Of a stretch of DNA of 64,000 nucleotides, positions 18,504 through 22,132 are shown in pieces. Source of the stretch: Chloroflexus aggregans DSM 9485 (GTDB taxonomy: Bacteria > Chloroflexota > Chloroflexia > Chloroflexales > Chloroflexaceae); assembly GCF_000021945.1 (NCBI RefSeq), contig NC_011831.1, forward strand, positions 186,001 through 250,000, written 5' to 3'. The position numbers and the translations under genes are program-made. The first letter of the stretch is position 1. Each line of letters opens with the position of its first letter. A model generated the notes under the pieces. It ran no database searches, was not told the DNA's origin, and saw only the letters and a list, made by a program, of their open reading frames with translations.

Positions 18504-19559
18504 CTAATCGGCGGCAATTGCCGGTTCAGGCACCGCTGCATCTGTTTCGAGATACGGTGCGAAGAATCGCTCAATTGCTTCTTGCGCTGCGGCAAGACTG
18601 GTGGAAGTATGAACGGCGACACGCAGATGGTTACTGCCGGGTAAGCCGATGTAAAACTGACCGATCAGTTGTTTGATCTTATTGAGCGCCAACCGTTCGG
18701 GTAATTCTTCGGCGTAGATCGCCATGTACTCCAGCAAGAGATGGTACTTATCGGCAGGAGTTGGCTCAAACGGTGTGCGGCCTTGACGCAGATCGGCGAC
18801 TTGGCGGAAAATCCACGGATTAGCGATTGCGCCGCGTCCGATCATCACGCCATCGGCGCCACTATCGCGTAATCGGATGAGCGCATCTTGCGCGGTGACG
18901 ACATCACCACTCCCGATCACCGGGATTGAGACGGCACGCTTGAGCGCTGCCACTCGTGACCAATCGGCTTGCCCTTTGTACCCTTGCTCACGGGTACGCG
19001 GATGTAGCGTTAGTGCAGCGACGCCGGCAGCTTCGGCGCGCTGGCCGGCTTCAATAAAATTGAGGCTCGCTTCGTCCCAGCCGGCACGCAGCTTGAGCGT
19101 CACCGGAATCTGGACGGCAGCCCGCACTGCTCGCAAGAGTCGTTCCATCTTCGGCAGATCACGCAGCAACGCCGAACCATGCCCGCCACCGGTGACTTTC
19201 GGGGACGGACAACCGCAGTTAATATCGATAATATCGGCCCCTAATTGCTCGACGACCCGTGCTGCATTCGCTACGAGATCGGGATCGTTGCCCGAAATCT
19301 GCATCGTCAACGGTCGTTCTTCTGGTAGGTAGTCGAGCAAGCGATGGCGGCGCAATGCTTTTGGACTGACGCTCGCAGCGTTGGTCATCTCTGTACTCAC
19401 CAAACCACACCCACCCAACCGCAATATCATGCGGCGGAAGATGCTGTCGGTGACGCCGGCCATCGGGGCCAGAACGATATTCGGTTCTATTTTGATGTAC
19501 GCAACATGGTACGCTGTTGGGAGCTGCGCAATTTCGGTGAAGGTTATTTGATCACTCAT
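18504..19559 (-). CDS. dus: tRNA-dihydrouridine synthase (DusB/NifR3 type)
   Basis: A 351-residue FMN enzyme reducing uridine in the tRNA D-loop. It opens with the TIM-barrel motif LAPMAGVTDSIFRR (30-43). The catalytic Cys is in INCGCPSPKVTGGGHGSALL (Cys117), the flavin-phosphate sites in GSGDV and GVMIGRGAIANPW, and the C-terminal helical domain follows. ATG 19559 follows AGAAGG; the long extension to 19667 is unrelated sequence. It is the first gene of an operon with a flavodoxin-like protein and an acyltransferase, 49 bases downstream of the gene remnant next to the IS element. Confidence 0.95.
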   Translation of the reverse strand: MSDQITFTEIAQLPTAYHVAYIKIEPNIVLAPMAGVTDSIFRRMILRLGGCGLVSTEMTNAASVSPKALRRHRLLDYLPEERPLTMQISGNDPDLVANAARVVEQLGADIIDINCGCPSPKVTGGGHGSALLRDLPKMERLLRAVRAAVQIPVTLKLRAGWDEASLNFIEAGQRAEAAGVAALTLHPRTREQGYKGQADWSRVAALKRAVSIPVIGSGDVVTAQDALIRLRDSGADGVMIGRGAIANPWIFRQVADLRQGRTPFEPTPADKYHLLLEYMAIYAEELPERLALNKIKQLIGQFYIGLPGSNHLRVAVHTSTSLAAAQEAIERFFAPYLETDAAVPEPAIAAD

Positions 19560-19608
19560 ACCTTCTATTATAGCAGAGAGTGGGTAGGGCGATGCTGTTC
19601 GGCGCCGA

Positions 19609-19878
19609 TCAATACCGTAAAATCCCGGCAATACGCTGGTGAACGCCGAGCGAACCGTTCGGCACAAAAACTACCTGCCCTCCCTGCTCGATCACGGTGG
19701 CAATGACTTCATCAACCGCATCATCGAGCGCACCCGGTGTCGTCGGGTCGTCGACCGGTGTCAGGCGTAAACCGCTCTCGTCGATCAGCGTTGCAATACG
19801 ACTTTCTTGCGCAAACCGCCATACTTCACCGAGGGTTGAAGTGGCGCGCTGCCCACCCACTGCGGCATCTAGTTCACC
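19609..19878 (-). pseudogene. 3' remnant of a probable baeRF/eRF1-domain gene
   Basis: About 90 codons after the IS right end, in frame with tnpB. The sequence RIATLIDESG, then ALDDAVDEVIATVIEQGGQV and the ending HQRIAGILRY resemble the C-terminal domain of bacterial archaeo-eukaryotic release-factor-like (baeRF) proteins, which characteristically end in an A-x-L-R-Y. The rest of that gene is absent: beyond the IS lies rex. I infer IS insertion followed by loss of the 5' part. The family assignment is from memory of the pattern. Confidence 0.55.
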
Positions 19879-21009
19879 TGACACTCCCACGGCTAAAGCC
19901 TGTGGGGGTTCTCGGTTCTGCAGCCCGCCCAACGGCTGAGCCTCCCCGAAGGCGGTGCCCCCGCCCTTCTTTAGGATAGTAAGCGCAGCATTATGATCGC
20001 GGTGCAATTCACAACCACAATACGGGCAGGAGTGCCAGCGAACGGCAAGCCGTTTGGGAACGGACTCGCCACAGTGTGCGCATACGTGCGACGTTCCGGC
20101 AGGGTTGACTGCCACCACGACTCGCCCAGCACGTGCAGCCTTGGCGAGCAGGATATTCAGAACGATACCCCATCCGGCGTCGTGGATCGATTTGGCAAGG
20201 GGATGGTTCCGTACCATCCCCCGAATGTTCGGTTTTTCAACCGCAATATGGTCATCCTCATTGACCGGTGCGCGGGCGATTGTGTGGGCAAAATCCCGTC
20301 GCGCCCGCTTGACCTTCAGGTGAGCGTTCGCAAGCAACGTGCGAGCCTTACGGGAGCGATTGCTACCCTTCACGCGACGAGAAAGCCGTCGTTGTGCCTG
20401 TTTCAGCGTGCGTTCGGCGACGCGATAGGAGCGCGGGTTGGCAATCTGCACGCCGTTCGACAGCGTTGCAAACGACCTGCCGGTTGGCGGGAGCGGCGAC
20501 GGTGCAACGTCACACACGATATGTGCGTACCATCCATCCGCGTTGCGAACGATGATACAGATTGTTGGCGTGCCCTCAACCGGGCGATCGTTGTGCAGCC
20601 GGAGAGCGCCGATTTTGGAGAGGACAAGCCGTCCCTGCTCCCGCTTGACGCCGTTGCCCCACCGGGGATAGGTGAAGCTATCGTACCGGCCCTGCCCTTT
20701 GCAGCGCGGATACCCCGCCTTTTCACCGGCGTTCACCCGCCGAACGAACGCTTGAAACGCGCGGTCTCCTCGACGCACGACATCCTGCACCACTTGGGAG
20801 TAGACACGCTGCAGATACGGCACCTCCCGTTTCAGCATAGGCAGGCTGGCGCATTGGCGCGCAAAGCCGATGGACTCGCCACGTTCCCGATAGGCGGTCT
20901 TGCGCTCGCTCAGAGCGTGGTTGTAGCGTTGGCGGCAGGTTTCGACCGTCTCAGAAAGACAAGCCACTTGAGCAGGTGTCGGACGTAACGTGTAGACAAA
21001 CGTCTTCAT
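19609..21009 (-). CDS. tnpB: TnpB (IS605 OrfB) fused to a foreign C-terminus; RuvC-I lost
   Basis: A 466-residue frame. Residues 1-348 are a TnpB RNA-guided nuclease-like protein: N-terminal helix-turn-helix region, basic KQAQRRLSRRVKGSN, RuvC-II Glu258 (IAVEKPN), zinc finger Cys310/313/328/331, RuvC-III Asp338 (HRDHNAA). The RuvC-I segment expected between PPTGRS and FATLSNG (family form about V-G-I-D-x-G-L-x-x) is missing, apparently by a nine-codon in-frame deletion near 20475, so the first catalytic Asp is gone. From about residue 377 the frame leaves the IS and reads the 3' remnant of another gene. Start overlaps tnpA as ATGA. Confidence 0.85.
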   Translation of the reverse strand: MKTFVYTLRPTPAQVACLSETVETCRQRYNHALSERKTAYRERGESIGFARQCASLPMLKREVPYLQRVYSQVVQDVVRRGDRAFQAFVRRVNAGEKAGYPRCKGQGRYDSFTYPRWGNGVKREQGRLVLSKIGALRLHNDRPVEGTPTICIIVRNADGWYAHIVCDVAPSPLPPTGRSFATLSNGVQIANPRSYRVAERTLKQAQRRLSRRVKGSNRSRKARTLLANAHLKVKRARRDFAHTIARAPVNEDDHIAVEKPNIRGMVRNHPLAKSIHDAGWGIVLNILLAKAARAGRVVVAVNPAGTSHVCAHCGESVPKRLAVRWHSCPYCGCELHRDHNAALTILKKGGGTAFGEAQPLGGLQNREPPQALAVGVSGELDAAVGGQRATSTLGEVWRFAQESRIATLIDESGLRLTPVDDPTTPGALDDAVDEVIATVIEQGGQVVFVPNGSLGVHQRIAGILRY

Positions 21010-21432
21010 CCGCGTGTGCGCTGCGCTTCGCTATACCGCCGGATGGTATCGGCGGAAACGTGTCCGGTCGTTGACCAGACATACGAACGAGTCCCCAAGG
21101 ACGGCATGCGTTGCAGGAAAGGAAACTCCTGTCGCAGGATGCGGCTGGTTTTGCCCTTGAACCGCCCAACGATGTGGTTGGGTACCCAGTGCGGCGTTGC
21201 CGAAACAACCGGAGGGAGATGGTCAGGCATGATTTCAAGTGCCAAAATCTCACATCCAAGCTCAGACGCCGTTTCACGAATCAGTTCTTCCAAACGTGTT
21301 TTTAGGCGGTCAACTACAATCTTCCGTCGCCGCTTGGGGCACCAGACCAGGTGGGAGTTGATGCGCAACACGCACGGATCGTTGGAGTGGTCCATCTGTT
21401 TCATAGCAACAGGATATCATAGATTGTGTAAT
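19881..21432 (-). mobile_element. IS200/IS605-family element, probably immobile
   Basis: The element contains tnpA and tnpB in the usual order. Right end: imperfect hairpin at 19886-19906 (CCCACGGCTAAAGCCTGTGGG is the stem-loop), close to TGACA, as in many elements of this family. Left end: only about 28 bases before tnpA, where TTAC at 21428-21431 (minus strand) could be the target tetranucleotide, 16 bases past the rex stop. No target duplication is expected for this family. The exact ends are approximate. Confidence 0.7.
21006..21404 (-). CDS. tnpA: TnpA-like Y1 transposase with broken HUH motif
   Basis: A 132-residue IS200-type single-strand transposase. Family landmarks are HLVWCPKRRRK, EIMPDH, IVGRFKGKTSR and the catalytic Tyr124 in VSADTIRRYSEAQ. 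The metal-binding HUH motif, normally H-V-H in PDHVHLLVS, is here His62-Leu63-Pro64 followed by another Pro (codon CCT at 21213-21215). Without the second His the protein should not bind its catalytic metal. The reading frame is otherwise intact. A one-base change CAT to CCT explains the loss. Confidence 0.88.
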   Translation of the reverse strand: MKQMDHSNDPCVLRINSHLVWCPKRRRKIVVDRLKTRLEELIRETASELGCEILALEIMPDHLPPVVSATPHWVPNHIVGRFKGKTSRILRQEFPFLQRMPSLGTRSYVWSTTGHVSADTIRRYSEAQRTRG

Positions 21433-21446
21433 ACGTTATCGAGGAA

Positions 21447-22085
21447 TTAATGTTGCTGCTCACGTGCCAGATAGTAGGTCATACTTTGTAAGACCGCGAC
21501 CGGATCGATATATCGGACCCAGACATCTTCCGGCACTTGCAAAATCATCGGTGCATAGCTTAGGATCGCGCGCACACCGGCCTCGATCAGCACATCGGCG
21601 ACCCGCTGTGCCTGAAGCGCAGGAACCGCGATAATCGCCAATTTAACCTGCTTCTCGGCAACCACGCGCCTCACGTTGGCAAAGTCTTGAATGACCAAAT
21701 CACCAACTCGCTGCCCGATCTTGGCCGGATCGGAGTCAAACAGGGCGACGATCTCGATCCCCTCGCTACGAAAGCCTTCGTAGCGGGCAATCGCTTGGCC
21801 AAGCAAGCCGATACCAACCAGCACAACCGGCCAATGTTGATTGAGGCCAAGAATCCGTTCAATGTGATGCAATAGCTTTTCGACATCGTAGCCGATGCCT
21901 TGTTTGCCAAACTCGCCGAAATACGAAAGGTCTTTACGAATTTGGGCAGCAGTCACATTAATCCGCTCACCGAGTTCCTGTGATGAGACGGAATGAATTC
22001 CCTCTTCCAGTAGGTAGCGTAGGCTTCGAGCATAGAGGGGTAGCCGCCGAATAACAACATCAGGTGGTTGATCTGAACGCTCCAC
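21447..22085 (-). CDS. rex: Redox-sensing transcriptional repressor Rex
   Basis: A 212-residue NADH-sensing repressor. Winged helix at about 15-75 ([34 protein letters not shown]), Rossmann domain with [16 protein letters not shown] and [10 protein letters not shown], and the C-terminal swapped helix. GTG 22085 is chosen: GGAGG lies seven bases before it and the product then starts at the usual point; the frame continues to 22130 without support. A strong candidate Rex operator lies on its own promoter (22115-22132). Rex usually controls respiratory and fermentative genes according to NADH/NAD. Confidence 0.95.
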
Positions 22086-22114
22086 GGAAAGACCTCCATT
22101 GGCTCGGGGAGAGT

Positions 22115-22132
22115 ATGTGAAGTGTAGCACAA
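22115..22132. promoter_or_regulatory. Candidate Rex operator (ROP)
   Basis: ATGTGA-AGTGTA-GCACAA matches the Rex consensus TTGTGA-N6-TCACAA at ten of twelve positions. Its centre AGTGTA is the -10 hexamer (TACACT, minus strand) of the rex promoter. Confidence 0.7.

Follow-up and report, generated by a model that had tools for sequence, protein, structure and literature searches.

A RuvC-I deletion in the TnpB of a decaying IS200/IS605 copy in Chloroflexus aggregans

Among the closest described systems is the TnpB of ISDra2, in which the RuvC-like site mutation D191A prevents cleavage and whose element uses TTGAT as its target (PMC8612924). A point mutation in RuvC-II of AmaTnpB was found to leave the RNA unprocessed (PMC10278001). 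Relatives of TnpB with an inactivated RuvC, termed TldRs, have been described as keeping guide RNA and DNA binding, with many of them lying beside non-transposon genes (PMC13418256). For whole families, structural variants of IS605 tnpB in Halanaerobium hydrogeniformans are carried by copies which do not form clades, and this was read as recombination between copies (PMC7290912); gene conversion among dead insertion sequence (IS) copies of Wolbachia is cited in PMC3196728. A literature search on the insertion sequences of Chloroflexus aggregans returned nothing on the subject by title.

The window analyzed here is a stretch of 64,000 nucleotides from C. aggregans DSM 9485 (contig NC_011831.1, positions 186,001 to 250,000), and the features discussed are collected in Table 1. 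By Pfam the locus carries both a Y1 (HUH) transposase TnpA and a TnpB, as expected of an IS200/IS605 element, though HxH, the motif of TnpA, is altered. About 80 bp of the left end are gone and a search for left ends found none at the window copy, which is therefore a truncated relic. Its tnpB has also lost the stop codon by one additional C in a run of C (an additional C also found in copy L007 of the family described below), and because this +1 frameshift removes the stop, reading continues past the right end into the remnant of a host gene and the frame attains its full length. The tetranucleotide TTAC occurs again at the cut left side of the element (window 21428–21431), which may be due to chance or may have been left when TnpA cut aberrantly at a second TTAC.

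Table 1. Features of the window copy and its surroundings (window positions).
Feature	Position	Strand	Basis or remark
TnpB frame	19609–21009	−	466 aa; three TnpB-type Pfam domains
baeRF / ribosome-hibernation-factor-type host gene, 3' remnant (88 codons + stop), in-frame fusion	19609–19877	−	NF052287
IS200/IS605-type element copy, left end missing	19878–21429	−	blastn of L005 element positions 81–1658, 94.7%; right end ...GTGTCAG
tnpB part of the 466-aa frame, 370 codons, RuvC-I deleted	19900–21009	−	PF12323, PF01385, PF07282; NF040570 (guided_TnpB); 12-copy alignment
RuvC-III Asp codon D338, kept	19996–19998	−	Invariant in 26-row protein alignment
Zinc-finger region C310–C331, four Cys kept (C310/C313/C328/C331)	20017–20082	−	Invariant in 26 rows
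RuvC-II Glu codon E258, kept	20236–20238	−	Invariant in 26-row protein alignment
Deletion junction, one GTCG left	20473–20476	−	Intact copies: GTCG–23 bp–GTCG
tnpA (Y1 transposase), HxH reads HLP	21006–21404	−	PF01797, NF033573
rex-type redox regulator, left neighbour of deletion scar	21447–22130	−	PF06971, PF02629

The first-pass annotation of this DNA had proposed that RuvC-I, with the first catalytic Asp, was precisely removed from a TnpB whose frame, remaining catalytic residues and zinc finger were kept. Alignment with the full-length copies of the same genome bore this out, as exactly 27 bp (nine codons) are missing from the window tnpB and no Asp stands at this place. The window frame reads LPPTGRSFATLSNG at the deletion, with TGRSFATLSNG at 20473–20476 compared with TGRSVGIDVGRESFATLSNG in intact sisters such as L005. 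Five equivalent placements of the breakpoints were found, corresponding to a microhomology of 4 bp (GTCG) at the deletion ends. A protein alignment of 26 rows, made without sequences that contain internal stops, shows the RuvC-I Asp in every row (23) but those of the three deletion copies; the other proposed residues are kept throughout. A catalytic Asp merely misplaced by the alignment was ruled out, as the DNA and protein alignments agree. With the RuvC-I Asp absent the D-E-D triad of RuvC is incomplete, and the window TnpB should be nuclease-dead because D191A abolishes cleavage by the TnpB of ISDra2. The lost residue is presumably the equivalent of that D191, judging from alignment and numbering.

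A protein search of the genome itself (4,684,931 bases in one contig) returned 21 matches, comprising 12 copies of the element (the window copy, L001, to L012), two matches which are other parts of L012 and L011 (L014 and L015, respectively), four more distant tnpB genes (L013 and L016–L018) and three short pieces (L019–L021). The identical RuvC-I deletion was found in three of the 12 copies (L001, L002, and L003), which lie at unrelated sites and in all of which the frame is open through the C-terminus of tnpB. The suggestion that the window protein is an independent case was accordingly dropped. The DNA of the other nine copies keeps the GIDVG segment; five of these have an open tnpB with the full triad (L004, L005, L006, L008, and L009) and the remaining four (L007, L010, L011, and L012) have a tnpB interrupted by a stop codon or a frameshift. 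Outside this genome, a scan of a genome collection detected no deletion allele and gave two relatives, 64 and 40% identical, both of which keep the Asp (GIDVG and GIDLG, respectively). A protein search of a plasmid collection matched 3364 records, all with less than 60% identity.

The left end lies at TTAC in all ten copies that have a left end (L001 and L012 do not), and the right end reads TGTCAG in all 12 (GTGTCAG in 11 and ATGTCAG in L008). Insertion is therefore 3' of a short target with no target duplication, as in IS200/IS605 elements, and the target is that of IS608 and not that of ISDra2. L002 and L003 keep both ends and remain delimited as IS copies. The left-end search gave 12 places in the genome, namely the ten copies and two elements consisting of ends only (L019 and L021). 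The latter are ~210 bp in length (84 bp of left end and 100 bp of right end) and belong to the same family. In eight copies the HxH motif of TnpA has Pro in place of its second His, which is kept only in L003, L005, L007, and L008, so that most copies are probably mobile only in trans, if at all. A 156-bp deletion in tnpA is common to L003, L009, and L012; this allele occurs in mixed combination with the tnpB deletion, which L003 alone of the three possesses.

The tnpB genes of the 12 copies are mosaic and lie close to linkage equilibrium. Their alignment has 96 informative sites, and of the 4560 pairs that these form, 2683 are incompatible by the four-gamete test, with r2 falling from 0.37 at distances of up to 10 bp to 0.08–0.12 beyond (chance level near 0.09). 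With all of the element included, there are 5031 failing pairs out of 9180, compared with a mean of 5141 in column shuffles, although the whole-element linkage figures and chance level include edge columns with the misaligned flanks of L001 and L012; the figures for tnpB only are clean of these. In 60 clonal simulations of the same diversity, which refer to the whole-element data and not to the tnpB set, failing pairs made up 2.4% on average and 20% at most, compared with 55% observed in the whole element, and the mean r2 at more than 100 bp was 0.54 (minimum 0.28), compared with 0.093 observed. These mosaicism figures stand without a within-genome control, as the DDE-transposase family considered gave four matches, which are too few and too diverse. 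Such a pattern suggests intense exchange of short tracts between copies; the copies being near linkage equilibrium, dead alleles therefore probably pass from copy to copy by short-tract recombination. That this conversion is driven by the biology of the IS itself, with single-stranded DNA excision circles or TnpB breaks serving as donors or triggers and dead alleles circulating in a trans-complemented family, is a speculative and rather unlikely extension. The family resembles that of H. hydrogeniformans in being multi-copy and in showing stages of decay. It differs in the nature of the variants, which are two 64-nt inserts in H. hydrogeniformans and a 27-bp RuvC-I deletion here, and in the measured near-absence of linkage.

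The window copy is, with high probability, a dead and immobile copy of this 12-copy IS200/IS605 element, holding a slippage deletion which spread between copies and encoding a non-functional relic. The deletion would have arisen once, by slippage at the GTCG repeat, a reading favored because this 4-bp repeat lies at the deletion ends. Its spread would then be due to gene conversion, with short tracts recombining between copies of the element, to transposition in trans of copies with both ends, such as L002 and L003, or to both. The presence of the deletion in three copies is explained most simply by a single slippage and subsequent exchange of short tracts. The GTCG repeat also favors recurrence with the same endpoints, and the deletion could have arisen independently two or three times with no exchange. 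L002 differs from L001 and L003 on both sides of the deletion: to the left at alignment column 1067, which lies 18 columns before the gap, and to the right at column 1166. At its informative sites the tract between these columns is that of L005 also. This multiple origin is nevertheless improbable, as L001 and L003 have in common the haplotype left of the deletion, including a rarer one close to it (columns 997–998), and copy-to-copy exchange appears to be pervasive in any case.

An alternative is that the dead allele is kept for an action in trans on the family, competing for omega-RNA or shielding donor joints and so easing the nuclease load that the intact copies impose. Three dead copies with open frames do exist alongside five intact ones, and the N-terminal lobe of the deletion protein is predicted to be intact. 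However, three copies in 12 are within the reach of drift and conversion, and the stops and frameshifts in four other copies also speak against such a role, which is considered quite unlikely.

The deletion copies have seven nonsynonymous and four synonymous private changes, compared with nine and 18 in the five open copies without the deletion (Fisher p = 0.15); the four broken copies, with 10 synonymous and seven nonsynonymous changes in all, were left out of this test. Four of the seven nonsynonymous changes are clustered at two places, codon 285 of L001 and codons 317–318 of L003. Pairwise pN/pS among the deletion copies is 0.24–0.46 and not 1, although much of this is polymorphism in common with other copies. 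The elevated nonsynonymous change which the first-pass annotation had named, together with lack of expression, as speaking against its reading is present as a leaning and does not reach significance. The counts would be consistent with a trend to relaxed constraint in the deletion copies and are not proof of it.

In structural terms, the intact protein of L005 has the same fold and domain order as the TnpB of ISDra2 (8h1j and 8bf8; E = 7e-58). The catalytic Asp segment of the latter is missing from the window protein, L002, and L003. AlphaFold2 models gave a mean pLDDT of 82.9 for the window protein and 85.7 for L005. In Foldseek comparisons with 8h1j the model of L005 reached a TM of 0.80 (rmsd 3.2) compared with 0.56 (rmsd 7.6) for the window protein, a drop which can also mean a change of domain orientation, both models having been made from one 26-sequence alignment. 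Against 8ex9, in which RuvC is unresolved, the target TM was 0.86 for L005 and 0.85 for the window protein (rmsd 2.3). The RuvC core of the deletion protein is thus predicted to lose a strand and packing, and its RNA- and DNA-binding parts could persist.

A TldR-like reading would have a TnpB without RuvC-I, still able to bind omega-RNA and DNA, act as a domesticated repressor that silences a promoter through R-loop formation. The RuvC catalytic site is inactivated in the window copy as it is in TldRs, the frame has remained open despite the loss of RuvC-I, the allele is present in three copies, and the REC/WED lobe is predicted to be unchanged. Also in its favor is that the right end, the expected omega-RNA scaffold, is kept in L001, L002, and L003, and by analogy with ISDra2 the guide would be derived from beyond this end. 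Guide targets were sought in the whole genome with TTAC and the first 14 guide bases, allowing up to three mismatches and using the reversed pattern as control. Counting the copy itself, three places were found for L001 (three in the control), three for L002 (two in the control), and ten for L003 (one in the control). The matches of L001 and L002 are therefore at control level. The best place for L003 other than the copies, among the matches listed, has two mismatches, one of which lies in TTAC; places with an intact TTAC and three guide mismatches number one further each for L001 and L002 and at least one for L003. We read these counts as giving no convincing target for the guides of the deletion copies, though L003 is above its control.

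Other observations are also at odds with a repressor. Many TldRs are tied to non-transposon genes, whereas the three copies here lie at unrelated sites with two of them still borne on a bounded IS, and a TnpB of the window type was found in none of seven congeners (at E ≤ 1e-60), so that no conserved tie to a non-transposon gene was seen. The predicted disturbance of the RuvC fold and the fusion of the window copy to a host-gene remnant point the same way. A TldR-like function was rejected on the guide and congener searches, and is regarded as very unlikely. As to the two outcomes offered in the first-pass annotation, decay accounts for the findings far better than a repressor does, given the lost left end and stop, the fusion to a truncated host gene at a deletion scar, the lack of a convincing guide target, the absence from congeners at the threshold applied, and the predicted disturbance of RuvC. 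The window protein is most likely a relic without function, devoid of nuclease activity and, by analogy with AmaTnpB, of omega-RNA self-processing.

A search of window positions 19500–21600 with Rfam gave nothing above the gathering cut-off. Below it, a match to RAGATH-25 was noted inside tnpB (20571–20619, minus strand) with 25 bits, the gathering cut-off being 49. It was also present in L005 and L008 and absent from L022, L024, and L025, and is probably due to chance. The other sub-threshold match was to Pseudomon-1.

The surroundings of the window copy record a second loss. The gene order is rex (the redox regulator gene), the element, the 3' end of baeRF, and dus, and dus follows baeRF in congener G004 as well. 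Residues 376–466 of the fusion match the C-terminus of NF052287 with 66.4 bits, which is under the cut-off of 330 as expected of a fragment. In four of seven other genomes of the genus an open frame of 397–453 codons has a C-terminus with 69–80% identity to the remnant; this gene was assigned to PF18845 in G005, the one congener tested. The regulator gene was found in all eight genomes of the genus, including that of the window. In the four congeners the baeRF gene lies ~5.7–6.0 kb beyond rex, and the segment from rex to the insertion point measures 5.7 kb in loci L077 and L078. About 5.7 kb of congener DNA between the two genes (encoding an M4 peptidase and others) are absent from the window. 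The loss rests on these four congeners because no baeRF match was found in the other three (G002, G003, and G006). A DNA search with 4.3 kb of the missing segment did not locate it at any other place in the genome, and a protein search with its M4 peptidase gave no match either, both searches having been run without a positive control.

When TTAC is joined to the right flank of the element, the LREL frame is restored as in the host gene of two of the four congeners, with the pattern unmatched in L079 and L080. The element would thus first have inserted into the baeRF gene, and its left end, the 5' part of baeRF, and the upstream neighbours would have been lost later. The resulting 466-aa fusion of TnpB and baeRF might be taken for a new functional protein, as its frame is open over the junction up to the native host stop. 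However, this needs just a +1 slip in the C run and a frame that falls right one time in three, and the baeRF part has lost roughly the N-terminal three quarters of the congener frame, as well as some ten internal residues. A functional fusion was rejected on these two grounds, a chance frame and a fragmentary baeRF part, and is considered extremely unlikely.

The RuvC-I deletion is thus genuine and lies in a decaying IS200/IS605 copy, and domestication is not supported. A repressor would have meant that an RNA-guided transcription factor had arisen anew, which the evidence does not bear out. Even in several copies with open frames, a dead TnpB is by itself no evidence of domestication. What the locus provides is a clean case of a catalytic motif deleted at a microhomology and then found in several dispersed copies of an IS. 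The mosaic family is of more interest than the window copy itself, its 12 copies offering a place in which recombination between IS copies can be measured.
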